Source of the DNA: Dioscorea cayenensis subsp. rotundata
Taxonomy: Eukaryota; Streptophyta; Magnoliopsida; Dioscoreales; Dioscoreaceae
NCBI RefSeq assembly: GCF_009730915.1
Contig: NC_052477.1
Span: 930,001 to 994,000, forward strand
Direction: 5' to 3'
DNA: 64,000 bases
Both the position numbers and the translations under genes were made by a program. Shown one piece after another: positions 37,435-64,000 of the stretch (position 1 is its first letter; every line of letters begins with the position of its first letter). The notes under the pieces are model-generated. The model saw only the letters and a list, made by a program, of their open reading frames with translations. It did no database searches and was not told the DNA's origin.

Positions 37435-37443
37435 TAAAAAAAA
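37435..37443. repeat. left 9-bp target-site duplication of MULE 1
   Basis: TAAAAAAAA directly before the element's GGGGAAAATTAC terminus; the same nine bases follow the other end at 46884-46892. Low complexity weakens it, but position and length fit Mutator. Confidence 0.75.
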
Positions 37444-38057
37444 GGGGAAAATTACTGTTCATCCCTCGTAATTTTCAAAACTTCCCAAAAACCCCCTCTT
37501 ACTTTTTACACGACCCTTGACAGATTTAGTGTTTAACTTCCCTATTACACCCCTACAGTTCACTCAAATGGGTCCCATGTTGTGAAATCTCATTTTTGGC
37601 CTTGAAAATGGTGGGAAAGGAAAGCCTAAAATCATCAGTGTTCAACCTTTTCGAGGGACTTTCATGCGATTTACGATAGACGATGCATAGGGAGTTGCAT
37701 TACATCTTGTTGTTCTCCTCATTTCTCCTCATTTGAGTTGTTCCACTTCGATTCTGCAGGTTGCATGTCTGGTGAGAATCTCTTCGTTCTTATCGGTTTG
37801 ACCATTCAGCGGGGAGTTTATTATGGCGACTCATTTGTGGTAGTGCGGGTGAAGTTTATCATACCCGAAATATATAAATCGGTTTCTCCAACGGAAAATG
37901 AAGTTGATTTCCATCGGATTGGTCGAAGTCGCACTTCATCTTCAAAATGAGTCGTATTCGATTTTATTGTCGAGGTAAAAGCATGTGCCATTGTCGTCTC
38001 CGTTTGAAAAAGCGAGTTCATTTCGTTAGTAAAAGTTCTTCTCGTTTATTGTTATCT

Positions 38058-38207
38058 GTTTGTATATTTTAAATAATGTTTAACTATTTGTTATTATCCG
38101 TTTAAATATATTACTAATATGTTTAATAATTGTCATATCCGTTTAATACTTGTCATCTCCGTTTAACATTATCTTTACATGTATAACTTTTCATATTAAC
38201 GTTTAAA
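38058..38207 (+). repeat. 20-22-bp periodic GTTTAA array (mudrA-side intron)
   Basis: GTTTAA-like cores begin at about 38058, 38078, 38100, 38121, 38141, 38161, 38181 and 38201. The flanks are degenerate, often ATCCGTTTAA. Confidence 0.85.
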
Positions 38208-38303
38208 TTCTCAAAAGTCTTTGCAGTAAAAGCGGTGATCTTTTTCGTTTGATCCGAATTGTTGGCGGTGGCACGTGGCGGTGGCAAGGTTATGAGTATC
38301 CGT

Positions 38304-38338
38304 GCATAAGAATTAATGAGCGGCATTAATTCTTATGC
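38304..38338. repeat. perfect 15-bp inverted repeat with 5-nt loop
   Basis: GCATAAGAATTAATG (38304-38318), loop AGCGG, then its exact reverse complement (38324-38338). It could form a stable hairpin within MULE 1. Confidence 0.95.
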
Positions 38339-39111
38339 GCGTACTATACATATCCGAACACCCGATTCGTTGTAATCCGATCGATGTCGGTCCAGCTGTG
38401 CGTTTGATTTTTTTCTCGGATATGAAGAGTCGACCGCTGTGGGACTTCACACGCATAAATAACTGGGAAGAACCCTTCCCATGGATAACCACTCGTCGTC
38501 ATCCTCATCATCTTCCTCCTCCTCCTCCTCCTCTTCCTCCTCTTCCCATGGACAACCACTCTATCTGAAAGGATGTTTCGTGAACCTCCTTCCCTTATCT
38601 TGAGAATCATCGCCAGTAATCACGCAACAAGTTAAATTATCTTTTTCTTTGCTCAGCGAAATGCTCGCGATAATTGCCCCGAATGCGGAGGATTCTCCGG
38701 TGGATGGACGACGGGAAGCAATTATGCGAGCTTTTCGACTTGGGTAAGAAAAAGAAAGTTTTTCACGTCATGCGTGATTGCGAGGATCTCAGAGGAGGAG
38801 GTCGAAACATCCTTTAAGACGGGGTTGATATCTATCACTTGAGACTTTTTATTACCGTTTAAGAAAATTACGTCAGTGTACAACTATGTCGATTACGTGT
38901 TTAACTACCAGATATCTTCGCTTAAGTCCCGAGCCATGACACATTGATTAATAGTCGCTTTTTATGAATGTGTTTGTTTTAACCTTTTTTTAATATTGTA
39001 TGTTGTGCAGGTTCAAGTTGATGCGCATGTTATGCAACCGCTGTGAGCATTCGAATGTACAGACACTTGTTTCGTTATACGAGGGTCGAGTCGTGAGTGT
39101 CCAAAGTCCTT

Positions 39112-39176
39112 GTAAATGTTGTAAATGTTGTAAATGTTGTAAATGTTTTGTAAATGTTTTGTAAATGTTGTAAACG
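39112..39176 (+). repeat. minisatellite of GTAAATGTT units
   Basis: About seven consecutive units of 9-11 bp (TGTAAATGTT with variable T length) inside MULE 1. Confidence 0.9.
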
Positions 39177-40206
39177 AATGTTTTATTTGAATGTGAACTT
39201 TTGAAATTTAAACAGAGACCTAGTAAAACAATGTGGGAAACAAAAGAACGTCATTGTAAACAATAAAAAAAGTTAAACAATACGATTGTTACTCTTTAAA
39301 CACTGACAACGGTGTTTAAGAAAATACGTAAAGATGTTTAATCAGTGACCCAGGAGGTACCCATCTTCAACGCGATGTCGATGAAAACATTCAATTTAAA
39401 CGATAACATATATTTTAAACAGATGAAGTCACTATATTTAAACGCTTTTACGTATTATTTACATGATATAGACTTTTATTTAAAACCGGTAATCGTTATG
39501 TTAAACACTATGTATATCCTGTTTAAACATAAAAAAACTTGACGGTTAAAGCAGGACACTCATGTCGAGCGATGACAATACGTCTTCATCGCGACAGTGG
39601 CATATATTTTTCCTTTTTTGCCCTTCTGATGGAGGGAAAAAAAAAATACTGCCCAATCACATCACGTCTAGTCTAACCTGTATGCACTTTTTGGTCTTCA
39701 TCGCGACAGTGATATATATATATATGCACTTTTCTTGTTTGCCTATCTAACTGCTGTTTGTTGTTTACATCTTCTTCTTCTTCGGCTTATTTTTGTTCTT
39801 CATTTCATTTGAATTATGACGATTTGGTTTTTCGACCGATATATTATGGAGAGTTTTTGTGGTATTGTTAGATTCAACGGGGAGGGAAGAGTGCTAATGT
39901 TCACGCTCGAACTTCTTGGGAGTTGGTGTTAGTCGAGATATGTGAGCGATGGGGTCTCGAAGTTTCTCTTGTCGGGTTAAGTTCATCACACCGGATGGAT
40001 ATAAAAAGCGGTTTGCCCAATAGAAAAGCGATGTTGCCTTTCCAGTGGATGTGTCACGTCTGCACTCCATCTTCAAATGTCATGTAGTTGATCTTGTCGT
40101 CGAGGCGAGAAAAATGTGCCATTGCGAATCCTAATGAAAAGCGAGTTTTTACTCGTTGTAAGTTCCTTCTCTTTTAATTGTTTTCGGGTTGTGCGGGGCC
40201 ATTAGT

Positions 40207-40340
40207 GTTTAAATATGTCCGTCATTAGTTAACATATTGTACTAATCGTTTACGTTATTAGTTAACTGCTTAAGTATTTAATTTAACGTTTAAATATTGT
40301 CATTATCACTTAAACATTATATTCTCCGCTTAACATATTG
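40207..40340 (+). repeat. periodic GTTTAA/GTTAAC array
   Basis: Cores start at about 40207, 40228 and 40248 and continue less regularly to 40335. This is the counterpart of the 38.06-kb array in the second mudrA copy. Confidence 0.7.
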
Positions 40341-40539
40341 ATCTTTTTCATTTGATCAAGTGTTGGCGGGGAATTCGATTCTGCGAGTGCTCGATTCATC
40401 CCCATGGTGACCACGGCGGCGTGGGATGTCTTCCTTCCTCGTCGGATCATTCGAAGTGCTTTGTCGTTGGATATTGGACAACGTTTTTGTGATGTCGAAC
40501 ATTTCGAGGATGTAGTTCAAAATCATGCAATCAAAAAGG

Positions 40540-42360
40540 AATTTTGACTTCAAATTTATAAAGAACGAAAAACATCGGAGTGATCGTGGAATGACCTGCA
40601 GATGGTTGTCGTTAAGCGCCTTCATGCATCAAAAGAGTATAACAAAAATTTTCGAATCAAGACAATCAACCCGTCGCACACTTGTGGTGGTGGCATAGGT
40701 TCGGTCGCATCAAAGCGTCCAAAATGGGTTAACGCACGAGTGATCTGAGCTCAGGGCGATCCCTCATGCAGAGGCCATCGACATTCGGGAAGGATATGTT
40801 CGGGGAACATGGTGTCCACATACCATGCAAAGCGAGGCTTGGTTGGGAAAAAGAGCATGCGGGTGGTCCTCGACGGCAGTGACATCTGACTACTGATCGC
40901 TTTGCTTTGGTATGTGGATAAGGTGGTGAGACAAATCCGTGCGGTGCGATCGTGGAAAGAGACGGTGATCGTTTTAAACGTGCATTCTTTTCGTTCAGCG
41001 CGTGTATTGTGCGATTCAAGAGGGCTTGCAGGCCGCTGCTGTTTCTCGATGGTGCACACCTCCGGGAAAAATATCGGGTACACTCTCGGGTGCCACGGGG
41101 AAAGATGGAAACAATGGTTTTTCCACGTCGCCTCGGTATAGTCGACAACGAGACCGATGCCAATTGGACTTGGTTCATATCTAAGTTAGGCGATGCCTTA
41201 TACGAGGATGGAGATTATCATGAGATAATTACGTTCGTGCCGGACGATGTCCAGAGGGCCTTGTGAGCGCAATTGCAGAGTCTTCCCTTCGATCGCCACA
41301 CGTCATCGTCTTCGACATTTGGAGGCCAATTTTATGAAAAGCCGATGTCGGACTTGGGAAATCATTGAGGGAGGAGTCTTTGGTCCATATGCTTCCGCAT
41401 TATAGTGGGCATCCACGGCTAAAGATTTCGATAATACCGTGAATGAATCTAGAGCCACATCACCAAGCTCATCACTGGTTGATTAATAAATCGGATATGG
41501 CACATTGTTGAATTATCTGTTCAGAGGTGATCGTTGGGGTGAGATGTATTCAAACGTCGCGGAGTCGTTCAATGCTTGGATCAAGGAAGCACGTCATTTA
41601 CCGGGTGGCGAAAAATGGTCGACTCCATAAGGTCTCGCGAATGTTGGTTTTCACTTAACATTTAGTAGTCACCCTTTAAACATTCTCAATCTTTGTTTAA
41701 TTACACTTATCTGACTTTAAATATTAATCCTTACGTTTAAATATTTACAATAATGTTTAAACATGTTTACTAATTATTTAACCATCATCTGCTCTTTGTT
41801 TAACCTTATTTGCAGGGTTCAAGTCGATGCAGCATGTTATGTAGCAGCGTTAGCAGCGTAATAAATGGGAGACCTACTTATGCCCGGACATACATTCGAA
41901 GGTAGAGATCATTGTTGAGGACGGCCGAAATCTTCGTGTTGGTGGTAGTGTCGACGATCGTTACGAGTGATCGACCAGATCGCGAGAACTCTCGTAGATC
42001 TCGCCATCGAACTTGCTCATGTCGAAGGTGGCAAGTTTATGGTATCCCTTGCAAACACGCCATGCAGTGAATAATGCGACGGACACCAACGCACATCGAT
42101 TTATTAGCGGTACTTTCACCGTCGACAATTACAAGCGGGCGTACAGAAGAAGCTATATTCCCCATACCCGACGATGACACGCCTTCGAGCCGGATATCGT
42201 GAGCTTCGCTTCTGATCGACCGCGACGAGAAGGCGAGCACTGGCGGCCCTAGACGAAAAGAGGATCGAGTCGCAGCGTTTGATGTCCATGAGTTACATTC
42301 TGCGACGCCGCCATGGATCCGGTCACGATCGACGATCTTGCATGAAACTGCCGCCCTGAC
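40540..42360 (+). pseudogene. mudrA: decayed mudrA transposase (MULE transposase)
   Basis: Pieces in three frames read as one MULE transposase in order: INPSHTCGGG (MuDR N-terminal domain, near 40665-40695), ERDGDRFKRAFFSF, PLLFLDGAHL, IVDNETDANWTWFISKLGDA and YEDGDYHEIITFV (DDE region, about 40950-41266), HHWLINKSDMAH, AESFNAWIKEARHLP, then WETYLCPDIHSKVEIIVEDG, the SWIM zinc finger (YGIPCKHA, near 42040-42060) and a CCHC knuckle (ELHC...GHDRRSC, near 42290-42350). Many small indels and stops break it, so it cannot encode an intact protein as written. A periodic-array intron interrupts it at 41653-41805. Confidence 0.88.
41653..41805 (+). repeat. 20-22-bp periodic TTTAA array (mudrA intron)
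   Basis: Cores at about 41653, 41674, 41695, 41715, 41735, 41755, 41776 and 41798, followed by a TTTGCAGG acceptor at 41812-41818. Confidence 0.87.
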
Positions 42361-42425
42361 TAGGCATCAGTAAAGTAAGCCGGCGATACGGGGAAACATT
42401 AGTGTATCGATGGGCAACTTTCCAT

Positions 42426-42520
42426 ATTTAAAGCAGAGACATTGTTATTTTTAAAGCGGATACACTGTAATTTGAAATATTTCAACCGATGTTTAAAGCG
42501 ATATATACTATATTTAAAAC
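42426..42520 (-). repeat. periodic TTTAAAG array
   Basis: TTTAAAG/TTTAAAA cores near 42427, 42450, 42471 (variant), 42492 and 42512. Orientation is with the minus-strand protease gene. Confidence 0.65.
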
Positions 42521-43499
42521 AATGAAAGTGAAATGCACACAATTAGAAACGTAAATTAAACAATGAAATGAAAGCCGATTGGAATTTAACACGCTTTACA
42601 ATTCAAAAACAAACAAAAATTTACATTAAGATATATCAAGTCATGCTCTTGAACACGAAAACAATGAATTGAATTTGTCCAGATTTACATTCGAAAACAA
42701 AATTGACATTCAGATATACAGGACATGTTCTTCAAAAACAAAAAATTTAACCCGCTGTGACGACCCCCTTTATCGGACGCCTGCCGCCCTCCCCTCCTTA
42801 AGTATCGCGGGTAACATACCTTAATGCGAGGTAAGGAACGCTCAGTCTGCATGTGGCCGTAACTTCTCACCCCAAAGTAATTGCTCGATAAACCGCATGA
42901 CGTAGACGGGCGCAATCGACGCTTCCTTGTTTTTGGCGTGGGGTTTTCTATATCGTACATGCAGTGGGTACTTTGCCTTTTGCACGACTCGCAGAACTCC
43001 ATATCGACACAAATGTCGAATAGATTCCGCTGTCGAGATATGCAAGTCGAGATTAGAATACCGATTTAAATACCACACAGATATTAATCGGACATAATTA
43101 AAGAACTTACCATGTCCAACGCGTCCTTATCGTACCCGGGACATGAAGAATAATGCCTGTATTCTTGTTTATCATTGTCTAGGATGACGACATGGAAGTG
43201 GCCATTCATGATTATCGGGAGGATGACAATTTGAATTTCATGCAGTTTGCGCACAACATCCCCGATCATAGCCATAATTGTGTCATGTGCGTCGTCCTCG
43301 CTTTGACATAAACAGCATGGCGGTCATCGGTGATGGGAGGCGCTTCTTGTAAGGATATGGCTCTTTGCTCGCGACTTTTGTATTAGGCATACTAAAGCGT
43401 CCATCACATCATCAGGTGACCATCTCCTTCCCCTCAAGCAGCGTGTATAATTTTGTCGCGTGTGGTCGACAGACGTCATTCTTCCACACGACAGTCTTG

Positions 43500-43690
43500 A
43501 GTTAAACGATAACAAATATAATAAAGACCATATTGTAAATATTTAAATGATATTATCAATTGTTACATGATATTATATATAATTAAAGCGTTAAGTAGAC
43601 AAATTAAATGATAACATAAAGGTATTAAACACTATTAGGTAATAGTTAAACACTATAATAAAACCTTTAAACAATATCATAAAAACTTTA
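43500..43690 (-). repeat. periodic TTAAAC/TTAAAT intron array of MULE 1
   Basis: TTAAAC, TTAAAG and TTAAATG cores recur about every 20 bp in the protease intron, the counterpart of 58064-58260 in MULE 2. The core is GTTTAA on the gene's sense strand. Confidence 0.75.
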
Positions 43691-44960
43691 CACTTACCCG
43701 TCCATAGAGCAGTTGAGGAAGATCCTCATCAACTCCACGCTCGATGTTTGTTAAAACGACTCGAGGCCAGCCCCATTTCTTCTTCTTCGAATAAAAAGCT
43801 TTCCGAGCCGTCGGTCCAATTTTTGATTGGCCTTGATCATCTCTCTCGTTGCTCGGTCGGGGGTCTTCGACGATCTTCCTTCGATGCGGGGAGACGATGG
43901 CGGCGAGCATCAGCTGCAGAACACGTCCTTACATGGTTGTTCTTGTTGTGGGATTGTGTACGGCCCGATCTTGAGGGACGACGACGGCGAGCATCAACCG
44001 AGACACATCCTTACATGGTTCTTGTTGTGGTGGGATTGTGTCACTGCGGCTGTGATGACTATCGGCGACTGACGCGGCGGCCAGCGGCAGGATCGGATTC
44101 GACGATCTTCTCAGCCCGTGGCCACGACAGCGAGCATCGTTTGGAGACACGCCCCTTAACTTGTTCTTGATCTTGAGGGATTGTGTCCATCTTTTGATGC
44201 CGCTGATCTGCGGCTAGGTTCCACCGGGTCGAGGATTTTCGTTGAAGCGAGTCAGCGACCTTCTCAGCGGCGGCAACGACATCATCTACGATGTCCTTCT
44301 CGACAACGACGTCGCCGCCGATGGTGTTGCTTATTATTTCATCGTCGTCCGGGCGGTGGAGACGAGGCGATATTGTTTCTCATCTTTTTCGCAAGTCTCT
44401 TCGAATGTGGCGCCTTTGGAATGACATTCCCGATGATATCGCTCGTCGCTCAAATTCCAGCGTCTCGTTCGTCCAGGTGCTTCGAGTTCTTTCGAGGGAT
44501 GGCGCAGCTCGGGTTGTGAATGTCCTTCCGTGCCTCAATCGGCGACAAGTCGAGAAACTCGGTCATCAATATCCGCGTGCTGCGTAAAGAGTTCTTTCGT
44601 GACATCTTCGCCTAATATCATCTGGTGGAGCTGCGCTGTCGAGTCCGCACGGTCGGTCGCCACAATCGGGGGCGTCGTTGTACGTGGTAGGGGGTTGTTG
44701 CAAACTGCACGTGGTAGGGGAGGGCTTCTCGGCATCGAGGAATGCGTCGTAGCGTGATGGAGTGGAAGTAGGAGAAAGCGGCGTCCAGTAGCGCCGCGAT
44801 AGAGGGTCGCATCCTCGTCCCGCCTTGAGCAAGTGGTTCGGGAGCGATGGCATCCATCCGTCGGTTGGCCCAAACAAATATTTCTTCTTGACGATTCAGC
44901 GGAATCATCTCGGGGAAACTAACATATGTAAACCAAACAATTTCAGCGAAATCATTCATT

Positions 44961-45129
44961 TTAAACTATAAAAACTATATTTAAGCAGTGTTTATATATT
45001 TAAGCGTTATAGAATATAATTAAAGCGGAGAACAAAATATTTAAACCGGTATGAATAAGTTTTAAACGGTAAATACTAAAGTTAAGCGCTAAATAAAAAT
45101 ATTTAAACATTAAAGACTTATGTTAAACA
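44961..45129 (-). repeat. 20-21-bp periodic TTTAAAC array (protease intron 1)
   Basis: Cores at about 44961, 44981, 45001, 45021, 45041, 45062, 45082, 45103 and 45123. Read on the minus strand they are GTTTAA or GCTTAA. This is the intron matching 56560-56728 of MULE 2. Confidence 0.9.
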
Positions 45130-46013
45130 TTGTCCATGATTTATTACCTCTTTTCCATCGAGCGATGACAAGCTCGTTTCTACCGTCAGCTTGCTTCGGT
45201 AAGTACTTTCACAGTAGCACAACATCCTTAGGGATCTTGCCGAAGCGGACTTTCTTCCCGTTCGGTCATCTCGTAAAACCAGGGACGTTAAGCGCTGACA
45301 GAGCAACCCTTAATGTCTCCTGTGTTGGTCTTACTTCCCGTGCGATCTATCTTGCGCTCGGCGGTCGCTTGTGGAATATCCTCCATAAGCCACTTGCATA
45401 ACGCTCGCCTGCGCACATGCGTATCGCCCATGGGCTGAGTATATCATTGGCGTAATCAACGATCCGAGTTCGGAGCGAGCATGATGTATTTGGGAAGAGG
45501 GTCGTCCCCATGAGTACACCATCGGGGAGTTTGACAAAATTATCTTCTTCTCCCCTCTGTCGAACAAGTTCGCACTGAGTGCTCTTGATGGAGTCTCTGT
45601 CTCTCGTAGGTCTTTGATAGATACCAGCCCTTGACGCCGGCACGGTTTTTCTTCTTCGACATGACCAGCTGCGTCGCCATCGCAGCGCGAGACCAAGAAC
45701 GAGGGCCACATCTTGAGGTGCTGAAACTCGCAGACTTTTCCCGATCCCTGAATTTATTGAGTGCGACCATCGTACCTTTGCGAAAGAGAATCAAGAAGGG
45801 CCCTCTCTTGGTATATAACTTCCAGCTCGATGAGCAGCACAAGCGAGTGTCCTTGAATAACCTCCCAGGTCGAGGGGGTCATGTTATCTTCAATTGACTA
45901 AGGTCTCCACAGCCGGTGTCAAATAGCATCGCCCATTAACTAGGTTGACCGCCATGTCAATCACAAACTGCTGACAATAACAACACATTCAACATGCAGT
46001 ATTGACAAAAAGT

Positions 46014-46165
46014 TTAAGCGGAAATATAAGGTTTTAAGCGGTAAACTCTCGATTATTAAAGCGATGATATAAAATGTTAGCAGAGACCCATTTTGTTAAA
46101 CGAGGCGAGAATACTTAAAAGCAGAGACAACAAATTTTAAAGTCTAACATCTAATTTCTTAAACG
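46014..46165 (-). repeat. 20-22-bp periodic TTAAGCG/TTAAACG array (5' of protease ORF)
   Basis: Cores at about 46014, 46034, 46056, 46076, 46096, 46116, 46137 and 46159, upstream of the protease ATG. Counterpart of 55572-55680 in MULE 2. Confidence 0.87.
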
Positions 46166-46883
46166 TCAACCTCCTTTGTAAAACTACAACCATATCAAGC
46201 GAAGGGAAATGTACGTTATAAATATTACATCGAAATCATAATAATCGAAAAAACTATTTCGATGGTGTATACATCTGAAAATACAAAACAAAACAAAACC
46301 CAGTAGAAATCTCCTCAGACTAACAAAACACGGTAGAAATCCCCTGCAGGACTTGATATCTTCCAACAAAAAGCAGGAGCATAAAACAAAAACCGAAAAA
46401 ATCTTTCTTTGTATGCAGCGTTAACATAAATCCATACTCAATACCTTAGATTTCAAAGCGAGTGAAATGCCAAGTAGTTCTTGCGGGTGACTTCTCCTTT
46501 GAGATCTGGGTGGAAAGGAAAAAAAGCTGCAAATTTAGAGGCTTGCGAGTAGAGACAACTCGAGGAGGCCGAAAATGGAGCAGTGAAGGCGTGAGTTGAG
46601 AAAAAAGCAAGATGGCGGCTACTAATAAATTGGTCTCCCGGGTTACCTCCCGAAAAAACCACTCACCTCACTCTCCAAATCGCTGAGGATGGGCTGCGTA
46701 CCTGACTCCCATGTAAGAGGCATTTTAGTCAAAAAATTTTGAAACTCACTCCGTTCATCCATTCTCAGGGGTTTGGGGTTTGAAAAACATAGGAGTTTAA
46801 AGGAGGGATTTTTGGGTATTCAAAAGCTCGAGGGTGTTTTAGCGATTTTCTAGAAACTTAAATGGTTTTTTGGCAATTTTCAC

Positions 46884-46892
46884 TAAAAAAAA
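46884..46892. repeat. right 9-bp target-site duplication of MULE 1
   Basis: TAAAAAAAA immediately after the right terminus, identical to 37435-37443. Confidence 0.75.
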
Positions 46893-47254
46893 TTCACCAA
46901 AACAATTTTTATTCCCCATGCCAGAATTTTTAATTAAAAAATAATACATTTTTTTTCCATTGAAGCTGCTGCTTCCAAATATCTAATTAAATATAATTCA
47001 TTTTTATCAAAATAAAAAAATTATATAATTTATATATATATATATATATATAAACTATATATTCATCAAAGGCTCAATTATTATTAAACGACCATTTCTT
47101 CACTCACTTCAAATTTGAATTCGAGCGCAGTCACTGACCACTCTTTCTCTCTCCCTCTCTACACCAACAATGGCGGACTCTCGCCGTCTCTCCTCTCCAA
47201 TGCCTTCGGTTTTCTAGGGTTCCATCTCGATTCTTGATCGGAATCATCTCCACC
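46893..47254 (+). promoter_or_regulatory. residual kinesin promoter and leader
   Basis: Only 362 bp separate the transposon from the kinesin ATG. A TATATA run (about 47032-47054) and a pyrimidine-rich tract (47140-47160) fit a core promoter and leader. Confidence 0.45.
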
Positions 47255-50200
47255 ATGATGTTCTCCACCTCCAAGCGAACCAGCTCCAGACCAAAGGCCA
47301 TTGAAAGCATCGAGAATGATGGCAAGAACACTAGAGACTCCCTTCCTCTCCCACCTTTCAGATCCCTCTAATCTCCATCCAGGACCCCTTCCAGACCTCT
47401 CTGACACCCAGATCTGCGCCGGCCACTCCGGCGGAAGTCGTTTTCCAGGCTCATGTTGGGGAATTTGAGCTCGGGAACTAGTAATGGCGGGCATTCTCAT
47501 CAGGGAGTGGTGGCAAGGGATAAGGGTAGCTTGTGCCGGACTCCGAGAGGGATAATCGATTCCAAAGCTTTAATGCCGGTTCACGTCCCGCATTTTGAGC
47601 TCAGTGAAGACCCCTCCTTCTGGAACGATCACAACGTGCAGGTTTGTGCTTTCTTTCTCTTCCTGCTGAGTTATGACTCCATGCGTTCTGCTGAGAAAGT
47701 TGAGATTTTTATTAGGATTTCATTCAATTAACTAATGTTCTCTTGCAAAAAAGGAACCTTTTTTTTTGGCTGTATGTCAATGCACTGTGTTACAATAATT
47801 GCTAGTGAACTCTCGAAAAAAAATGGTTCCTTTTTTGAGGATTATGGTTGTACTTCAGTGCAATTTAAGTACGCTACATGAGTTAATGCTTTCATTTATC
47901 ATATAATGGATTATTGCTGCAGATTTTGATAAGAGTTCGGCCAATTAACAGTGCTGAGTTGGGCTCCCAAGGTAACACCAGATGCTTGGTGCAGGAGAGC
48001 TCGCAGACAGTGGCATGGACAGGGCATCCCGATACCAGATTTACATTTGATCATGTAGCATGCGAGACCATTTCTCAGGTACTGAACTATGGGTGCTATA
48101 TTGTTGTGATGGACGATTCTCTTCAAACTTATAGCCTGACCAAATGGATATGTGTTGCTATGTGTTAAACAGGAGAAGCTCTTCAGAGTTGTTGGACTGC
48201 CAATGGTTGAGAATTGCATGTCAGGATATAATAGCTGTATGTTTGCATATGGTCAAGTAGGTCCATCCATGGCTCCTTTTTCTATTTCTAGGATGGTATG
48301 TAGCAGTTCCATTATGACTGTTAAATGTTTTCTGCAGACTGGCAGCGGAAAGACATATACTATGATGGGGGATTTTCATGAGATGGACAATATGCTCAGT
48401 GAGGATTGTGGGATGACTCCTCGAATCTTCGAGTATCTATTCATGAGAATAAAGCAGGTGGGTTCTATTGATGATGCTACACCTGAAACATAAGCTTCTT
48501 CCAGTTAGTTTTGAAGTCTTTATTTGCAATACAGGAAGAGGGGGCTAGAAATGATGAGCAGCTGAAGTATAGTTGTAAGTGTTCCTTCCTCGAGATCTAC
48601 AATGAGCAGATAACAGATCTCCTTGAACCATCATCTACCAATCTGCAGGTTAATTGATTACCATGGCCTATCCATTCTTCAGTTCATGAATTCATCTATT
48701 TTTTTTTATTTTTTTATTTTTATTTTTTAAATGTTCACTTCCATGCCATAGCTGAGAGAAGACATGAAGAAAGGTGTCTATGTTGAAAATCTCAAGGAAT
48801 GCGAAGTATCTTCTGTCAAGGATGTCCTTGAACTTCTTCTAAAGGTTTTCTTTACTTCTCCTCAAGTAACATTGCCTATTCTGCTACTACTATTATGAAG
48901 AGTGACCTGATACTTAATATTTCTGTAACTTGCCAGGGAGCTGCAAATAGAAAAATTGCGGCAACCCGCATGAATAGTGAGAGCAGTCGCTCCCACTGTG
49001 TTTTCACCTGCATCATTGAGAGCCGATGGGAGAAAGACTCATTGCTACACCTTCGATATGGACAGCTGAATTTAGTGGACCTTGCTGGTTCCAGAGGTTG
49101 CTTCTGCAATTCTAATATTCTTATATTCAAGATCTCTGCTTGTAGTATACTTAACAAATTAACCTTGATTAGGCAGAAAAGCTCTGGTGCAGAAGGAGAG
49201 CGTTTGAAGGAAGCTGCAAATATCAATAGATCCTTATCAACTCTTGGGTAAAATTTCTGAGTACCAGGAAGTATCATAATAGACCATATGCTCAAACATC
49301 TCTCTGCATTGTTAAATGGTTTTACACTTTTACTTGTGGACATGAGGTTGTAAGGTTTTATCAGGAATCTTTGCTGACCAGTATCATGAGAAAGTGACAC
49401 TAACAAGCAATTTGTCATCATTTAAAACTGAATTTATTAAATTTAAACTGATTCATTTGTCCTGTTATTTCCCAGACTAGTAATAATGACGCTGGTCGAT
49501 GTAGCAAATGGGAAAAATCGTCATGTTCCTTACAGGGATTCTAAGCTCACTTTTCTTCTTCAGGTTGGAACCAGCCGTGACATGTTTATTGACGCAACAC
49601 AATCATGTTTCACTCTGTAACTTTTGTCATTTACGAAGACTAAAATGATGCTTTGCATCTTATCTCAGGATTCCCTCGGTGGAAATTCTAAAACAACAAT
49701 TATAGCAACTGTCAGCCCATCAATCTGGTCTTTTTCTCTCTTTAACTCTCAGTGTACTTCTCCAAATTACTATTCTTCCAGTTTTAAACTGTATTTGATA
49801 TTATGTTGCTAATCAACGAAATTATTTAATCATGCAGCTCGGCGGGTGAAACACTGAGCACTTTAAAGTTTGCCCAACGTGCCAAGCTAATACAGAACAA
49901 TGTAAACTGAGCGATGCACCTTTCCAAGATATTTTCTTAGAACTTATCAAGCAGATAAGCAACCTGTTACATCTCTTTAGTAGAGTTTTTGATTTGCATA
50001 TCTTATCTCATCCAGGCTAAAGTGAATGAAGATGCTTCAGGAGATGTAATGGCTTTACAGCAACAAATACAAAAACTGAAGGTTTAAAAACATATCGAGA
50101 AGTCTTTCTGGTTTTGCACTAGTTTTCATTGAGATGAACAAGCTTGTTTTTCTACTTCAAACAGGATCAGGTGGTCTTTCTCATCAAGCATCAGAATATC

Positions 50201-51720
50201 CAGAGGTTCCCGGGTCCTTTATCTACGAGTCTTGAGCAAGTCAATTTGCATGATTGTCATGATGATCATGGTTCTTCTCAAAATGGTAACCCTGATGCTC
50301 TCAAAGATCCCAGCCTCCTAAATGAAAAGGTGTCCTCTAATTTCTTTCAATGAATTTTTGGTGGGCATGCAATCTTTTTACACAAGAAATTCAACTGTTA
50401 ATCCTTCCTTCAAAGACAGATTGAATTCCTGGAAACTGCTTTAATTGGCTCTTTACGAAGAGAGAAAATGGTAGAGGCTACAGTAAGGAGATTAGAAGCT
50501 GAAATTGAGCACATGAACAGACTGGTATTTACTGCTTTTCATTGACTTCTTACTTTTTATTTCATGCACAAGTAATTTCAGTGGATTTGGAAAGGACTAT
50601 CAATGTGTAGAAATTGTGGTATCTTACAAAACTCTAATTCCACTGTGTTTCGTATCCCGTGAATGATCTTTAGCTTCTATAATGCTTGTAGATCCACCAA
50701 AGGGAAGAGATGATGCCCAACATATCAAAGCCATGTTGAGATTCCGAGAGGAGAAAAATTAAAAGACTGGAAATGCTTGCTGACTGACTTGTTATCTTCT
50801 GATGGATATCTCATGGAGGAAAAAATTTCCCTTTCTGAAGAGAATAAGTTATTGCGAGAAAGAATAGATAGGAACCCAGAGTTAACTCAATTTGCCCTGG
50901 AAAATAAAAGACTGTTGGAGCAACTTAGAGTGTAAGTGGCATGCGTTATTTTGACAGTATGATTATAAATTCTTTTTATAGGGTTGTCCTTATGCTTATC
51001 ATCCATGTACATGGATTATGTAATGGATTCCTTCTGGGATTAGGTTTCAAGAATTCAATCAAGAAGGAGAACGTGACATGCTACTATAACTGAAGTCTCA
51101 TTTGCGCAATCAGGTAGGCAGGACAATGCCCTGTTTAACTTACTATCTCCATTTCTGGTTTCATGTTTAATTGAATCATATCTGACATTTGATATTGTAT
51201 TTTTCTAGCTTTACAATGTCCTTGAAGGAAAGCTTGCTCAGGTTAGTAGCTTGAGTTGAAACAATTGAATCATTTGGTCTTTTTGATTAGCAAGGTATTT
51301 CATCATTTTGTCGTTTCAGATTTCTCATTACTAAAAGAATTTGTACGCATATACGGAGTCACTCCTGTGACATTTAACATTTAATACTAAAATACTGACA
51401 ACTTCTTGATTTAAGGATGATGAGAGTTGTGAAAGAGAGTTGGAGAGATGCCAGGGAGCAGTTGGACCATGATGTGCCTAGAAAAAGAATGTTATGCTCA
51501 CTAGGTAGGGAACTGCTCACATATAGTCAAATTTTCTGTTCCTTATGTGAAATTTTCTCTAACACAGTGTTTGTCCTGATGAATGAATTTCACCATAGAA
51601 TTGGAGTTCAATATTTTTCATGTTTTATTTCAACAGAGAAATTGAGCTATTTAAAGGAACCAACTTACATAACATGGAACTTGAGGTCCTCAGTAGAAAA
51701 GGTAAGAGGCACTCAGCTTT
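47255..51720 (+). pseudogene. kinesin-12 (KIN12E-like) gene with frame breaks and a stop
   Basis: A plus-end motor of the plant kinesin-12 class, associated with phragmoplast or spindle. The motor domain is spread over exons 47923-48078, 48173-48256, 48338-48457, 48535-48648, 48752-48844, 48937-49096, 49173-49247, 49476-49563, 49669-49727 and 49838-49901, with tail exons following. Motifs: [29 protein letters not shown] (ATP loop), NSESSRSH (switch I), LVDLAGS (switch II), HVPYRDSKLTFLLQDSLGG and TLKFAQRAK. The tail (LRREKM, DRNPELTQFALENKRLLEQL, ELERCQ) matches KIN12E from memory. One base is missing in the SER codons of LAGSERQ (49091-49096), exon 1 has several frame changes, and TAA interrupts the tail at 51087-51089. 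The C-terminal two thirds are not recognised. Confidence 0.82.
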
Positions 51721-54700
51721 GCTAAGTTCTCCTAAGCTGACACCGCTATTTTAGCCAGGCTAAACAGTATTGAACCTCAAGATGATGGGAATTCAAATCT
51801 ACCGCCTGATTGTTGCACCATTTTGTTTCCTTCTTGATGCGGCATTAAAGAGTACACACAAATTCGAACAAAGCATTATGTGTGTATTTACATGCAAATA
51901 ATTTGAATATAAACAACAAAAACTAGAAGTTAGCTATAGCCATCATAATGAAGAATTTGAATCCTTGGTTTATGCTAATAATCATACAATGCTAAATTTT
52001 ACCATGTTTCCACGCTATGAGCTCCCAGGCAATCACCCTCTACTAGAAGGAGTACGTTTTTTGCCAATTCAGATAAATAAAGTTTTTATGTTTAATCAAT
52101 CATTGGATTTGCATTTTAAATGGCTTGCAGATGGATGAACAAGAGGAAAATGATGAATATCGGTACCTATTTGCTATATGGAAACCAGGCGAGCTTTTAT
52201 GAAATCAACTACTTTAACTGTTGGATCATGCTTCAAAATACTCTTGATTTACTTCAATGCTACTATACTAGGTGAAAACGCAGAATCAAGCGAGCCACCC
52301 ATAAATCACTGTAGCTTTCAAGGATTTGATGAACTCTGCAACAACATGGCTTGCTTTCGATGCAACGGTTTACGGGAAGCAAAATCAGAAACAGTTAGAG
52401 GCACACTTCTGGTGAGTCATATAGCACAATTTTCCTAGTCACTGATTATAAGTATCTTAGAGGGCAAGCCCTGAATGCATATAGGTTACAAGAGAGAGAT
52501 GCTTTATTACCTATATTAGATCATATAAATTATATAAGTAACAGCTTACAAACATAGACAACTCATCTATTGTACACAGATATAAAAAGAAATGTATCCT
52601 TGTTTGTCTAATAGATTCTGCTGCCCTGAAGTCATATAGGGTAATAAATTTAAAGCATAGACTTATGAAATTGAATGGAATTGTATTGGAAGTAGTTAAA
52701 ATCTTATTAATTAGATGAAATGTGAGCGTGGCAGACCTTATAGTTATTACATAGGTGATGAATTCAAGACTTTTATATATCCCATGATATTAGCTAAAGA
52801 TTCCTATTTCTTCTTCTTAAGCAAGTGCTCAGTAGTTCATGATATATTTCCGTCTTTCGTTTCCTTTTTGTATGCTTCAATAAAGATAATTCATCCATTC
52901 TGATACTTTTTTTTGGTTCTATCGATTCTTTTCCATTTATGATGTAAATATCATTTAACTGTATAGATCATATTCATATATGAATGAAATTTTGGTAAAT
53001 TTCTATTCAAGTCTGCCCTTTCCCCTAGAGATTAATCTGAAAGCCGTATCTTAACCTGGAAGTGGTTTTTCTTGACCCTCATAAGAACAAATTCTTAAAC
53101 TAATTGTCTTGTTTTCATTAATAATGTTATAAGGGTATGTTCAAATTGCTTTTGGGATTGAAGCATATGCTTAATTCTTTTTATCTTCAAACTTCTTTGA
53201 AGTGTATGCACTTAAAATTGAAGAGAAAAGACATGAAATCATCTTTGCCTAGTTCTTTAACTAATTTTTAAATTTGTAAAAATGATACATGTGTTCTGAT
53301 AGAAAAATAAATCACCATTTGTAGATACCTTGCAGAACAGCAATGAGAGGGAGATTCCCACTAAATGGAACTTATTTTCAAGTCAATGAGGTAAATAGTT
53401 TAGTTATGTTTTTTCTTTCAATAATTTTAACTTTTTTGTTATTTTCCCTTAATAAACTCAATTAGGGGGAAAAATATCAATAATGGCAACTGTTAAGAAA
53501 TCCCCATTGCTCTGTCACATGTAGGTTTTTGCTGATAACAAGTCCAGTAAAGACCCGATTGTTGTTCCTAGGAATTGGTTATGGAACCTCCCAAGAAAAA
53601 TTTGTTATTTTGGAACCGGCATTTCAACAATTTTCCGAGGTTGTAATATATGCATGCTCATCTCTATTAAGGAGAAACTTACTTTGATTTTTTACGTGAC
53701 AATGCTTATAGTTAAACTTTTTTCTGTTAGGTCTAACAATGGAAGAGATACAATTCTGCATGGGTCAAGGTATGCTATGGCACAACTAACTTAATAGATA
53801 TCCAATGCACTGACTTTTAGACATTTTTTTATTATCTCATTTGTTTGTCAAAGATACCAATGAAAAACAATTATAGATTAACGTACTGGAAATTTGCAGG
53901 AACTGTATGCATCCGAGGATTTGACAGGGAAACAAGAAGAGTAGAACTTCTCTATAAAAAGATTACATGTTCCTGCAAGTCAAGCAGCGAAGAAAAAAAG
54001 ATGACACCAAAGAAAAGAACACCGATGACAAAATGGCATGCAGACATTTTATTTTCTTTTAGGGATTTATACAATGTACATTTTGTAGATAAAAGACATC
54101 CACTTTGTGTATATATATGGACGAACAAATTTTTGAATGGTTCTCTGATCTGCGATTTATCAGATAGACAAATAAAACCATTGAATAACATGTGTTGCAT
54201 TGCTCTCAGTGTAAAATTTTCATTTGCAGATCAACACGTTTTGGTTTACATGGGAATTCTGTATGAGTATAGCAGACAGACAAGCAATAAACATTAACAA
54301 TAATGGAGAAAAATGATTGTCCATATACAGACTCATAATGGATATGCATCAAATTTTTATTTTTTATTTTTATTTTTTTATTTTTTATTTATTTATTTTT
54401 TTTTAATGTGTTGACAATGTGGACAACATGCACAAATTTTTTATATGCATCAATTTTTCAAATAACAGTCACTTAACTAATATTTTATAATTTTGGTATA
54501 ACAATTCTAGAGCAAAGTGCAGAGGCAAAAAGATAAAGAGTAAATGCTAAACGAATAGCTTTCCCTAAAATATGCCCTGAATGACATGACATCCACATCA
54601 CTTGTACAAGAGGCCTCGTTGACAGTTGCTTCACTGTTTAGGGCAATCTCTTCTCTGCCTTTGATTGCAGTATGGTCTATGTCGGCACAAGGAAGACCTA

Positions 54701-54832
54701 TGGAATTTGATCATCGCCGGCACTGCCAATGTCCGCACTAATGTCTTCAAAATTTATACACCATGTATTTTTTATTAAAAATAAATATAAAATTATTTTT
54801 TCAAAAAATATTATAACTTGATGGTAGACAAG
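51721..54832. other. kinesin downstream region, no clear gene
   Basis: Contains possible degenerate tail exons (a frame near 52120-52190 with DEQEENDEYRYL) and AT-rich DNA. The frame at 53845-54297 is open for 150 codons and Lys/Cys-rich, but it has no resemblance I can name. Confidence 0.4.
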
Positions 54833-54841
54833 TTATTTTAA
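54833..54841. repeat. presumed target-site copy left of MULE 2
   Basis: TTATTTTAA directly before the terminus GTGGAAATTGCC. The partner at the other end is not visible because of the gap. Confidence 0.35.
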
Positions 54842-55571
54842 GTGGAAATTGCCAAAAATACCCTGTTAGTTTTGCAATCCCCAAAAACCCCTTCCTTTTT
54901 AACTCTATGTTTTTCAAACCCCCAAAGCATGGAACGGATGTCAACGGAGTGATTTTCAAATTTTATGAACAAAAATGCCCTTGCATGGGGAGTCGTGAGT
55001 CATGCCATTTTCAGCGATATGAGAGGAAGTTGGGGGTTTCGTAGGGGTAACCCCAAGAGACCAATTCTATCGGAGCCGTTTACTTGTTTTTTTTCTCAAC
55101 TCGCGTCTTCGACTTTTTCCATTTCAAGTCGTCTCGAGTTGTCTCTCACTGCTAGACTCTGTAATTGCAGTTTTTCCCTTTCCACCGGTATCTCGAAGGA
55201 GAAGTCCCGCGCAAGTAGTTGGCATTTCATCAGTTTGCAATCTAAGGTATTGAGTATGGTTTTATGTTAACTATTTTGTTACAAAGAAAGATTTTTCGGT
55301 TTTGTTTTGTGCTCCTGTTTTTGTTGGAAGATATTGAAGTCTTGAGGGATTTCTGACTGGGGTTTTGTTAGTCTGCAGGGGTAATTTCTCCGCTAGGGTT
55401 TTTGTTTTGTTTTGCATTTTTTCGATGCATACACTATCGAAATAGTTTTTTCGATTGTTATGATTTGTGTAATATTTATAATGTGCATTTCCCCGTTCAT
55501 TTGATATGGTTGCAGTTTTACAAATGAGGTTTACGTTTAAGAAATGAGATGTTACAATTTAAATTTTGTTT

Positions 55572-55680
55572 TCTCTGTTTAAGTATTGTTGTCTCTGTTT
55601 AATAAAGTAGGTCTCTGTTTAACAATTGATATCTCTGTTTAAGAACTGAAGGTTACCGTTTAAGATCTTATATTTCCGCT
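55572..55680 (+). repeat. 20-bp periodic TCTCTGTTTAA array (5' of protease ORF)
   Basis: TCTCTGTTT begins at 55572, 55592, 55612 and 55632, exactly 20 bp apart, then variants TACCGTTTAAG (about 55654) and TTCCGCTTAAAC (about 55674). Confidence 0.93.
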
Positions 55681-56559
55681 TAAACATTTGTGAATATTGC
55701 ATGTTGAATGTGTTGTTATTGTCGCAGGCTTGTGGCTATGGCGGTCAACCTAGTTAATGGGCGATGCTATTTGACACCGGTAGTGGAGATCTTAGCTGAA
55801 TTGAAAGATAACATGATCCCGCGACATCGGGAGATCATCCGAAGGACATCGTTTGCATGATTCATCGAGTGGAAGCTATATACCAAGAGAGGGCCCTTCT
55901 TGATTCTTTTATTGCAAAAGGTACGATGGCCGCATCAATAAATTCGGGGATCGGGGAAAGCTTCGCGAGTTTCGAGCCTCAAGATGTGGCCCCTCGTTCT
56001 TGGTCTTCGTTGTGATGGCGACGCAGATGTGTTTAAGAAGAATAAAAACCCGCTCGGCTCGAAGGGAGGTATTTGTCAAAAACCTACCAGAGACACAGAG
56101 ACTCCATCAAGAGCACTCTTGTGCAACTTGTTCGACAGAGGGGGGAAGAAGAAAATTTTGTCAAACTCCTGATGGTGTACCTCATGAGTACAGTCCTCTT
56201 CCCAAATACATCATGCTCGGTTCCGAACTGGATCGTTGATTATGTCGATGATCTACTCGTCATGGGGCGATACGCATGGGCGTAGGCGACACACAAGTGG
56301 CTTATGGAGGACATTGTACAAGCAGCCGCTCGAGTGCAAGATAGATGCGCCCGAAAGAAGACCAACATAGGGTATATTAAGGGGTGCTCGGTCGCGCTTA
56401 ACGTATGGTTTTACGAGCTGACCGGAACGGGAAAGAAAGTCCGTTTCGGCAAGATCCCAAGGATGTTGTGCTACGGTGAAAGCAGTTACCGGAAGCAAGC
56501 GACGGTAGAAACCAGCTTGTCATCGCTCGAAGGAAAAGAGGTAATAAATCATGGATAAT

Positions 56560-56728
56560 GTTTAACGTAGGTCTTTAATGTTTAAACTTATTATTTAGCG
56601 TTTAACTTTATTATTTACAGTTTAAAATTAATTCATAAAGGTTTAAATATTTTGTTTTCCATTTAAATATATTCTATAATGTTTAAATATATAAAAACTC
56701 TGTTTAAATATAGTCTGAAATGTTTTAA
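56560..56728 (+). repeat. 20-21-bp periodic GTTTAA array (protease intron 1)
   Basis: Cores at 56560, 56580, 56600, 56620, 56641, 56661, 56681, 56702 and about 56722. Confidence 0.94.
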
Positions 56729-58063
56729 CTGAATGATTTCGCTGAAATTGTTTGGTTTACATATGTTAGTTTCCTGAGCTGGTTCCGGCGAATGCTGAAG
56801 AAGAAATATTTGTTGGGGCCAACCGACGGATGGATGCTATTGCTCCGGAACCACTTGCTCGAAGGCAGGATGAGAGGGCAGCCTCTATCGTGCGCGCTCA
56901 ATGCTGTTCTCCTACTTCCAGCCCACCACGCGCACGTATTCCTCGACGCCGGAGAAGCCCTCCCCTACCCCGCTAGATTGCAACAACCCCTCTACCACGA
57001 CAACGATAGTCCCCCTAATTGTGGCAGCCCCCTGACCATGGCAGCCCCTCCGACCGTGGCAGCCCCACCGACGACATTAGGTGAAGATGTCACTGCAACT
57101 CTTATGCAGGCGTGCCAGATTTTGATGACCGAGTTTCCTCGGCTTGTCGCTCGTGTTGAGGCACTGGAAGTACGTTCACAATCGAGTGCGCCGTCCCTCC
57201 AAAAAAATGAAGCACCCGGGACGAACGAGGCATCGAAATTTGACGATAACGACATCATCGGGGTGGCCATTCCAAGATGACCACATTCGAAGAAACTTGC
57301 GAAAAAGAGGAGAACAATACTGCCTCTGTCTCCACCACTGGCTGACGATGAAACAATAGCAACACCATCGGCGGCTGATGCTGTTACTGAGTCTGTCGCC
57401 ATTGATGACATGGCCATGACGGTTGAGGACATCGTAGATGATGTGGCTGTGGCCGCGGTTAAGAAGATCGTTTACTTTCTTGTTAACGAAATCCCCGACC
57501 CGGTGGAACCGGCTGTCGAGAGTGTGGCATCAAAGATGGACACAATCCCTGAAGAACAAGAACAAGCTAAGGGTGTATCTCCCGTTGATGATGTTGCCGT
57601 GGCCACGGTTGAGAAGATCGTTGAATCTGTTGCCGTGGTCGTAGCCGTGGCCGTGGCCGACAGTACCGCATCGAAGCAGGACACAATCCCACAACAAGAA
57701 TAAGCATGTAAGGGTATATCTGCGGTTGATGTTGTCATCGTCCTTGCATCGAGCTTTGACACAATCCCACAACAACAACAACCTATGTAAGGATGTGTCT
57801 GCGGTTGATCTTTCGTCGCCGTCGTCCCGCGATCGAAGGAAGATGTCTGTTGGTGCTAAACACCGTCAAGGCTCAACGGCAAACGGTCCCCATGAAGACC
57901 CGACCGAGCAACGAGAGAGATGATCAAGGCCAATCAAAAATGGGACGAGACGTCGTCGAAAGTCTTTTGTTCGAAGAAGAAAAAATGGGTTGGCCAATCG
58001 CGTCTTAACAAATACGAGCAGGAGTTGATGAGGATCTTCCTCAACTGCTGTATGGACAGGTAA

Positions 58064-58260
58064 GTTTAAAGTTTTTATGCTAGTGTTTAAAGTTTTTACG
58101 ATAGTGTTTAAAGTTTTTATGATAGTGTTTAAATGTTTATATATTATTATTTAATTTATCTACTTAACGTTTAATTATATATAATATCATTTGAAAATTG
58201 ATAATATCATTTAAATATTTCGAATATGGTCTAATTATATATGTTATCGTTTAACCTCGG
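58064..58260 (+). repeat. 21-bp periodic GTTTAA array (protease intron 2)
   Basis: GTTTAAA at 58064, 58085, 58106 and 58127, exactly 21 bp apart and sharing AGTTTTTA-GATAGT flanks, then looser copies (TTTAA forms) to the acceptor at 58262-58263. Confidence 0.92.
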
Positions 58261-58622
58261 CAGCATCGTAGTGGAAGAATGACATGTCATAGACTTCACG
58301 GGGACAAATTATACACTCTGCTTGAGGGGAAGGAGATGGTCACAGATGATGTGATGGACGCTTTCGTATGCATAATACGAAAGTCGCTGGGCAAAGTGCC
58401 ATATCCTTACAAGAAGCGAGACTCCATCACAAGACCACTCTGGGCGCTCTTTTATGTCAAAGCGAGGGACGACATGAAACAACTATGGCTATGATCGGAG
58501 ATGCTGTCGCGCAACTTGCATGAAGTTCAAATTGTCATCCTCCGATAATCATGAATGGCCACTTCCATGTCGTCGTCCTCGACAATGATAAAACAAGAAT
58601 ACAGGCATTATTCTTCATGCCT

Positions 58623-63720: not shown

Positions 63721-64000
63721 TCTTGACTTTTGAAACTCTTTGAGTCTTTGACCTCTGATGTCTAGAGACTACTGAATTTAATTGTCGATTTATATAGATT
63801 TTCAAATATTGACTTGTGAAATTCTTTGTGTCTCTCGACTTTTTGATGCCTTGAGACCACTTGAGTCTCAATTCATCGATTTATACTGATTTTTAATATT
63901 GACTTGTGAGGGCTCTTTGGGTCTCGACTTCTCGATGTCCCAGAGACCACTGAGAGCTCAATCGTCGATTTATATAGATTTTCAAATATCGACTTGTGGA
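63721..64000. repeat. 90-bp tandem satellite, running off the window
   Basis: The phrase GACTTGTGA/GACTTGTGG recurs at 63811, 63901 and 63991, exactly 90 bp apart; a more diverged unit begins near 63725. Units share TCGATTTATAxxGATTTT, GTCTC, GACTT and GAGACCACT pieces. The array continues past 64000. Confidence 0.88.

Follow-up and report, generated by a model that had tools for sequence, protein, structure and literature searches.

The window (the whole analysed stretch of 64,000 nucleotides of Dioscorea cayenensis subsp. rotundata) contained two MULEs in whose noncoding parts a short word with a GTTTAA core recurred in tandem. What reads this word, and why is it repeated?

Organization of the two MULEs

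The ends of MULE 1 were GGGGAAAATTAC...GGCAATTTTCAC, flanked by a 9-bp target duplication of low complexity (TAAAAAAAA, 37435-37443 and 46884-46892). The second end of MULE 2 was not found, and its sequence broke into an N run. Two convergent genes were found, mudrA and a DUF1985-C48 (protease) gene, the latter being the one in the part of MULE 2 seen. A third gene, VANB, was not recognised in the reading frames of MULE 1, whose genes were decayed. The pieces of its decayed C48 region showed no C48 match; a single hit, to the C57 family related to it, was weak (E 0.083). The elements and arrays are listed in Table 1.

Table 1. Elements, coding regions and arrays of the window.
Feature	Position	Strand	Remark
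MULE 1, whole	37444..46883	+	mudrA side first; genes decayed
GTTTAA array, 5' piece	38058..38207	+	piece duplicates part of mudrA start (region near 39.9-40.3 kb)
GTTTAA sites, noncoding, both orientations	39272..39560	.	absent from the list of the sequence-only reading
Array, mudrA intron-type site	40207..40340	+	
Decayed mudrA MULE transposase exon	40922..41263	+	Pfam MULE E 0.1
Array, mudrA intron-type site	41653..41805	+	
Weak array, four sites, GCTTTAAA variant	42426..42520	-	between convergent 3' ends of mudrA and protease gene
Decayed C48 (Ulp1-type) region, MULE 1 DUF1985-C48 gene	42688..43323	-	C48 matches seen in relatives
Array, protease-gene intron, MULE 1	43500..43690	-	
Array, 9 units, intron after DUF1985 exon, MULE 1	44961..45129	-	
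Decayed DUF1985 exon, MULE 1	45227..45745	-	37% identity to L036 exon (tblastn)
Array upstream of DUF1985 exon, MULE 1	46014..46165	-	
MULE 2, part seen	54842..58622	+	right end and protease gene up to N run at 58623
Array, 8 units, upstream of MULE 2 DUF1985 exon	55535..55684	+	start about 55535; previously given as 55572
DUF1985 exon, MULE 2	55950..56537	+	72% identity to L036 exon
Array, 9 units, steps 20-21, intron after MULE 2 DUF1985 exon	56560..56728	+	
Variable region, MULE 2 protease-gene protein	57281..57700	+	position of L018 tandem peptide repeat
Array, MULE 2 protease-gene intron before C48 part	58064..58260	+	

Periodicity and conservation of the word

The sequence-only reading had described a recurrence of the core every 20-22 bp in ten stretches of the two MULEs, and counts of spaced pairs confirmed it. 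At lags of 19-22 bp, the ten stretches contained 38 TTTAA pairs against a shuffled mean of 0.8 (maximum 6 in 300 shuffles) and 21 GTTTAA pairs against a shuffled mean of 0.0. The host stretches (47.9-53.9, 1-10.7 and 11.8-34 kb, each strand) had 0-2 pairs, within the shuffle range. In-register sites at steps near 20-22 bp or doubles of these were present in all ten stretches, and a chain scan recovered nine; the weakest was 42426-42520, with steps of 21, 42 and 23. Extra sites at other steps were also seen in some of the stretches. Genome-wide, GTTTAA pairs numbered 18,114 at step 20 (reversed control, 1,010), 9,747 at step 21 (1,050) and 328 at step 26 (863). The step was about 20.5 bp, the two helical turns noted earlier, and steps of one and three turns were almost missing.

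The intron after the DUF1985 exon carried 142 GTTTAA sites in 4,178 bp (34 per kb; 19 of 19 copies). The near absence of the core from coding parts, also claimed before, was measured in the DUF1985 exon, whose matches held 4 sites in 16,131 bp (30 loci, other lineages included). Among the 19 copies, pairwise identity was 0.93-0.97 at the four TTAA positions, compared with a mean of 0.80 in the spacers and 0.81 in the flanking exon. The first two positions of GTTTAA (0.79 and 0.75) were no better kept than the spacer, and when the hexamer frame was shifted by one base or by two, the contrast stayed almost equal or grew. The constrained unit was narrowed by positional identity from the whole hexamer to TTAA(A).

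Placement and orientation of the arrays

The arrays had been assigned to introns; the array at 42426-42520 lay in no modellable intron and that at 38058-38207 in a duplicated 5' piece. A restriction to introns was ruled out by arrays that were intergenic or lay in short non-autonomous elements, which had the ends of the family and no transposase. In L025 and L027, a captured fragment was flanked by GTTTAA arrays; the match in L027 was GeBP-like and weak. One intron was aligned; its GT and AG ends were outside the array, and whole units had been gained or lost between copies (L021 was longer; L011 and L012 were shorter). This turnover fits the growth half of the proposal that the introns arose or grew by tandem repetition. 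An origin by repetition was unsupported, and was rejected as a general origin, because DUF1985 genes that had no array (L029, L033 and L037) had their GT splice site at this codon too.

The core was said to lie on the sense strand of the gene that it interrupts. The claimed strand was found in all ten stretches, and in relatives 73 of 74 mapped arrays at six intron-type sites were in the sense orientation of the gene. Mapping was limited to arrays that held one or more exact GTTTAA, and where orientations overlapped, the one with more exact words was kept; the tally leaves out four unmapped arrays and a single array of L010, at 37767. The site between the convergent 3' ends (42426-42520) was on the minus strand in 10 of 11 mapped arrays. 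In one TGTGTATA element, sense and antisense sites stood at 18 to 1 and 20 to 3 in its two halves. The sense strand of the studied intron was 45% T versus 34% A. Plant introns need U-richness, which probably explains why introns carry the arrays in sense; the protein itself probably makes no such demand, since the one noncoding block before mudrA had both orientations. There is a slim chance that the strict orientation results from reading of the word in the course of transcription, as nascent intron RNA or in an R-loop. The DUF1985-C48 protein would then free no copies but those already transcribed, and anti-silencing would be coupled to transcription.

Proteins encoded by the family

The DUF1985 profile (PF09331; cut-off 35.1 bits) scored 39.9 bits in L036, 39.3 in L043 and 37.2 in L045, and all 11 aligned members matched it at E<=0.01. 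For C48, L017 reached 21.3 bits (cut-off 20.7), while L016 (17.7), L018 (15.6) and L039 (14.5) were below the cut-off, and a second L016 piece had no match among the five pieces scanned. The C48 pieces shared strand and order with the DUF1985 exons, and both are predicted to belong to one gene. Its variable region in L018 contained, by sight of the translation, a peptide of about 50 residues repeated in tandem. Compared with 177,635 solved sequences, the DUF1985 profile had VANC21 (9lnj, 9lnk) as its only match at E<=1, a weak one (E 0.036). Searches of the PDB sequences with the single members L032 and L045 did not reach VANC21, and the other proteins that they hit were matched weakly; the structure model made for comparison with VANC21 was poor (mean pLDDT 47).

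The transposase of L018 matched MULE (75.3 bits) and DBD_Tnp_Mut, the MuDR N-terminal domain (73.6 bits); L009 matched SWIM (41.5 bits), and L039, from the sister lineage, matched MULE (50.8 bits). Target site duplications of 9 bp were found in L025 (TTATTTTAA) and L009/L010 (TTATTATTA, of low complexity). Terminal inverted repeats were at most short and degenerate, with about a dozen similar bases by eye between the left end, GGGAAAATTACTGTT, and the right end read inward, GTGGAAATTGCCAAA. The transposase domains, duplications and ends are those expected of a VANDAL-type MULE.

Words and DUF1985 lineages

The word was compared with the DUF1985 tree at 22 of 150 scored DUF1985 matches, namely the ten best and then twelve down the list (L029-L038 and L040-L051), which were picked before their arrays were known. 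Nine loci had GTTTAA, three RCTTAA, five TGTGTATA and five no array. These labels changed three times on the tree, the fewest possible, compared with a shuffled mean of 11.5. The RCTTAA label was given by autocorrelation and sight, since the strict word formed chains of no more than 2-3. For the "no array" label, about 1.3 kb was covered to either side, and these 5 of 22 loci count against a VANC-like reading, as does the modest excess of TGTGTA pairs genome-wide (831 at step 21 versus 366 in the control). TGTGTATA was an unrelated word with a like step at the corresponding introns of a sister lineage. The loci L009-L028 came from clusters of GTTTAA pairs at the top of the pair list on contig 1; selected in this way, they are no evidence that the family alone has the word. 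Another row set had 14 GTTTAA rows, eight of which (the window included) were not chosen by DUF1985, and the count of label changes refers to the 22 loci only. The match between word and lineage cannot tell which protein reads the word because mudrA is inherited with the DUF1985 gene.

Comparison with known systems

The sequence-only reading knew of no description of such arrays, which no longer holds: in PMC5735166 and PMC10398659, target arrays of VANC proteins in VANDAL MULEs are already described, the latter paper being an RdDM follow-up to the former (Hosaka et al. 2017). The VANC proteins of Arabidopsis VANDALs are anti-silencing proteins with a reported make-up that includes DUF1985 and a repeat-bearing variable region, and they bind short tandem motifs in noncoding parts. 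VANDAL21 and VANDAL6 (PMC5735166) resemble the present family as MULEs with a DUF1985 protein that has a variable, tandem-repeated region, and with a short tandem word in introns and other noncoding parts that varies among related families and gains and loses units. The words differ, GTTTAA, RCTTAA and TGTGTATA here and YAGTATTAY or AGTTGTCC/AC there. The protein here also has C48, and two convergent genes were present and a third was not seen. The known VANC21 and VANC6 words occurred only 7 and 10 times in 149,648 bp on both strands, and a known VANC word was rejected for the arrays; since words vary by family, this mismatch does not define the system.

DUF1985 combined with C48/Ulp1 and degenerate ends is shared with the KIU (Kaonashi) Ulp1-bearing VANC genes of non-TIR MULEs, which stand beside VANC systems across eudicots; according to the review PMC13317346, Vandals that carry KIU recognise motifs in other such Vandals. 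L025 and L027 resemble Pack-MULE/Pack-TYPE elements as short elements that have the ends in common and carry a captured fragment, and differ in that the fragment is flanked by the GTTTAA arrays of the parent family. For one Arabidopsis Pack-TYPE element, direct repeats possibly targeted by VANC6 are mentioned in PMC12312487. Among the papers listed, the literature search found neither the words GTTTAA and TGTGTATA, nor DUF1985 jointly with MULE and Ulp1, nor anything further on VANC/VANDAL periodicity, nor a structure paper on VANC21; Sasaki et al. 2022, outside the search, may hold like words. The orientation lock and the arrays around a captured fragment were not found stated in the available portions of the VANC literature, and the same paper may state them. 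Sasaki et al. 2022 reportedly state that specificity is set by the sequence, density and helical periodicity of the motif, and that copies that are non-autonomous are of importance.

A probable VANC-like reader and its alternatives

The arrays are very likely target sites of a VANC-like DUF1985 protein encoded by the MULEs themselves. In favour are a single word at a two-turn step in noncoding parts, its near absence from the DUF1985 exon, the better kept TTAA core, the turnover of whole units, the arrays of short elements and the change of word with DUF1985 lineage. The protein would bind the word as DNA, with several molecules lined up along the same helix face, and binding would remove silencing marks so that the family is expressed and mobile. 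Tandem duplication would supply new sites, and protein and word would change together, so that each lineage would free only its own copies.

It is unlikely that the words are instead sites, scattered over the element, at which the mudrA transposase binds and which are unrelated to silencing. Lineage-specific words would fit this too because mudrA travels with the DUF1985 gene, and arrays are retained in short elements that lack mudrA. However, transposase sites usually lie at element ends, and the listed arrays of MULE 1 were at least 614 bp from the left end and at least 718 bp from the right end, and several lay deep within the element. In the described case, moreover, VANC is the protein found by ChIP at such motifs (PMC5735166). 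Passive repetition, in which slippage lengthened AT-rich introns and the founding unit left the word behind as a relic, would account for the whole-unit indels and the neat tandem step. It is decidedly unlikely, since the TTAA identity exceeded the spacer mean, an unrelated word kept a like step in the sister lineage, one word was common to several separate sites of one element, and arrays also flanked a captured fragment in short elements.

The two-turn step would also suit phased AT-rich cores that act by DNA bending or nucleosome placement and need no specific reader. This is very improbable, given a specific word that changes coherently by lineage, and the near absence of one- and three-turn steps points to a repeat unit rather than free phasing. 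It is extremely improbable that the word is a splicing element, either a repeated branch-point-like sequence or a U-rich enhancer. TTTAAC and CTTAAC resemble plant branch points, and the 73 of 74 sense arrays would agree with such a role. The general splicing role suggested earlier was nevertheless unsupported because arrays were also intergenic and in transposase-less elements and the word varied at the same intron, where the sister lineage had TGTGTATA; array-less DUF1985 genes kept the splice site at the same codon.

With a VANC-like DUF1985 protein as the reader, the pairing of such a protein with a tandem target word would extend to another plant genome. In this genome sister DUF1985 lineages have GTTTAA, its close variant RCTTAA or the unrelated TGTGTATA at the same intron, all with a similar step of two turns. 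The series of words may be natural material for studying DNA reading by DUF1985 and the joint change of protein and target.

Periodicity of the GTTTAA word

The ten stretches in which the sequence-only reading had seen a GTTTAA-type core every 20-22 bp, seven in MULE 1 and three in MULE 2, were periodic. A scan of the window for chains of sites recovered nine of them, and the stretch 42426-42520 held four sites with steps of 21, 42, and 23. When the ten were pooled, 38 TTTAA pairs were found at lags of 19-22, against a mean of 0.8 and a maximum of 6 in dinucleotide shuffles (n=300). The complete word GTTTAA gave 21 such pairs against a shuffle mean of 0.0. Further peaks appeared at lags 40-42 and 60-63. 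Host-gene introns had been said to lack the core, and the host stretches of the window contained 0-2 pairs, within the range of their own shuffles. Across the 584-Mb assembly, 18,114 GTTTAA pairs lay at step 20 (reversed control, 1,010), 9,747 at step 21 (1,050), and 328 at step 26 (863), which is out of phase by half a turn. The ladder of steps extended to six units in the fetched elements, where hand weighting placed the single-step lag at 20.7 and the five-step lag at 102.7, indicating a unit of about 20.5 bp; steps near 10 and 31 were nearly missing.

The elements and their genes

The ends of the elements resembled each other, by eye, across just ~12 bases. The target duplication of L025, a short element, was TTATTTTAA, clearer than that of MULE 1, and that at L009/L010 was TTATTATTA. 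In L010 (~850-950), an inverted left-end word followed the right terminus of the L009 element within ~40 bp, and a second element may abut that element there. Because the MULE 1 and MULE 2 genes in the window were decayed, relatives were read for gene content. All 15 regions L009-L023, chosen for clusters of GTTTAA pairs, matched MULE 1 or MULE 2 by blastn, with the matches of L010 and L023 spanning only ~1-1.6 kb. L018 encoded a MULE transposase (75.3 bits) and a MuDR N-terminal domain (73.6 bits), and L009 a SWIM finger (41.5 bits). The second gene, convergent with mudrA, encoded DUF1985 (39.9 bits in L036, cut-off 35.1), which was matched at E ≤0.01 in 11 of 11 aligned members. Among five pieces scanned for the C48 domain of this gene, L017 reached 21.3 bits (cut-off 20.7), L016, L018, and L039 scored under the cut-off, and a second L016 piece gave no match. 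The variable region of its product contained a repeated unit of ~50 residues in L018. A genome search for DUF1985, with 150 of 455 candidates scored, returned at least 150 matches at E ≤0.001, and a search of 14 control genomes found no match.

Positions of MULE 1, its array places, and other features in the window. Orientation was tallied for the arrays of L009-L023, MULE 1, and MULE 2 mapped onto MULE 1.
Feature	Position	Observation
MULE 1	37444 to 46883	both flanks TAAAAAAAA
Array place	38.1 kb	sense 7/7
Array place, upstream of mudrA	39.3-39.6 kb	7 plus, 13 minus
Array place	40.3 kb	sense 10/10
Array place	41.7 kb	sense 13/13
Array place, between convergent 3' ends	42.4-42.6 kb	minus 10/11
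Array place	43.6 kb	sense 14/15
Array place	45.0 kb	sense 19/19
Array place	46.1 kb	sense 10/10
Run of exactly 1000 N	10753-11752	gap or withheld stretch
Run of exactly 1000 N, in MULE 2 near C48 start	58623-59622	gap or withheld stretch
90-bp tandem repeat	63723-63998	3.1 copies

Position, orientation, and constraint of the arrays

The mapped arrays, each containing one or more exact copies of GTTTAA, with the richer orientation kept where two overlapped, clustered at eight places on MULE 1; four unmapped arrays and one at 37767 lie outside this tally. At six of the places the core was on the sense strand of the element's own gene in 73 of 74 arrays, as had been claimed. The coding parts had been described as free of the core, and DUF1985 exon matches from 30 loci of several lineages contained 0.25 GTTTAA per kb (4 in 16,131 bp). 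In the intron after DUF1985 the density was 34 per kb (142 in 4,178 bp, 19 copies). The part of the 5' region with the first array was present twice within the element (window 37.9-38.2 and 39.9-40.3 kb; L018 3752-3983).

Arrays were also present in all five short non-autonomous regions L024-L028, which had a common left end, with the right end found in three (L025, L027, and L028). In L025 (2124-3854, ~1.7 kb), 26 sites on one strand versus 1 on the other surrounded a captured fragment. L027 (from 2601) also held a captured fragment between GTTTAA arrays, resembling that of L025 by eye; a reading frame in it, on the GTTTAA-reading strand of the arrays, had a weak GeBP-like match under the cut-off (E 0.011).

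When this intron was aligned across the 19 copies, whole units were gained or lost between copies (L021 was longer, L011 and L012 shorter). With MULE 2 as the reference for unit positions, pairwise identity was 0.93-0.97 at the TTAA positions versus a spacer mean of 0.80 and 0.81 in the flanking exon, and positions one and two of GTTTAA were no better than spacer (0.79 and 0.75). The conserved part of the word is TTAA(A), because frames shifted by one or two gave a near-equal contrast, slightly larger in the 17- and 7-copy subsets. In TTAA-anchored chains from six loci chosen by DUF1985 match (92 units), 81% of the units began with G and 93% had T at position two. GCTTAA occurred at several units at once in some GTTTAA copies (MULE 1, L009, and L014).

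The proposal that the introns arose by tandem repetition was not upheld. Three array-less loci (L029, L033, and L037) have a GT splice site at the same codon as the other loci, so the intron had no need of an array.

The array word follows the DUF1985 lineage

Twenty-two loci were drawn from the DUF1985 list blind to the word. GTTTAA chains were present in nine, TGT(G/A)TA chains (TGTGTATA) in five, and period-20 arrays with an RCTTAA core in three of a sister lineage (L043, L044, and L046). No arrays were detected near the DUF1985 exon in the other five (L029, L033, L034, L037, and L049), which belong to one DUF1985 lineage, and none of the 22 had an antisense chain of these words at least three units long. 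The TGTGTATA arrays had steps of 20-21 downstream of the DUF1985 exon, and upstream the sites were sparser (41, 23, and 21 in L038). Genome-wide, step-21 TGTGTA pairs showed a modest excess (831 versus 366 in the control). L039, a longer piece of the TGTGTATA lineage, carried a MULE domain of its own and the common outer word GGGAAAATTAC. On its mudrA side 18 sites pointed along the gene and 1 against it, and on its protease-gene side the figures were 20 and 3.

On the DUF1985 tree of the 22 loci every label occupied one side of a branch, and the four word labels needed 3 changes, the minimum possible, versus a shuffled mean of 11.5. The GTTTAA group was weakly supported (75/78) and the three other groups strongly (99-100). 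The array word thus follows the DUF1985 lineage.

The arrays as probable VANC-type targets

A DUF1985 profile searched against solved structures had one match, VANC21 (9lnj and 9lnk, E 0.036), which two single members did not reach; the structure model was poor. Sasaki et al. 2022 reportedly named both helical periodicity and non-autonomous copies. According to Hosaka et al. 2017 (PMC5735166), DUF1985-bearing VANC proteins bind short words in the noncoding parts of VANDAL MULEs and bring about loss of methylation; these words are tandem, family-specific, and evolve by gain and loss of units, and tandem peptides occur within VANC variable regions. The same noncoding parts are targeted by RNA-directed methylation, as stated in PMC10398659, and terminal repeats of VANDALs are described as absent or short and degenerate in PMC6446971. 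A review (PMC13317346, citing Sasaki et al. 2022) describes an Ulp1 domain in some VANC genes and action on motifs of the own group.

A much less probable alternative is that the arrays are sites of the mudrA transposase. Since mudrA and the DUF1985 gene are inherited together, this explanation stays compatible with the sequence. Anatomy, lineage pattern, and precedent agree in pointing to VANC-type target arrays as the most likely identity. As such targets, the array words would be bound by the DUF1985 protein of the element, which would then bring about demethylation.
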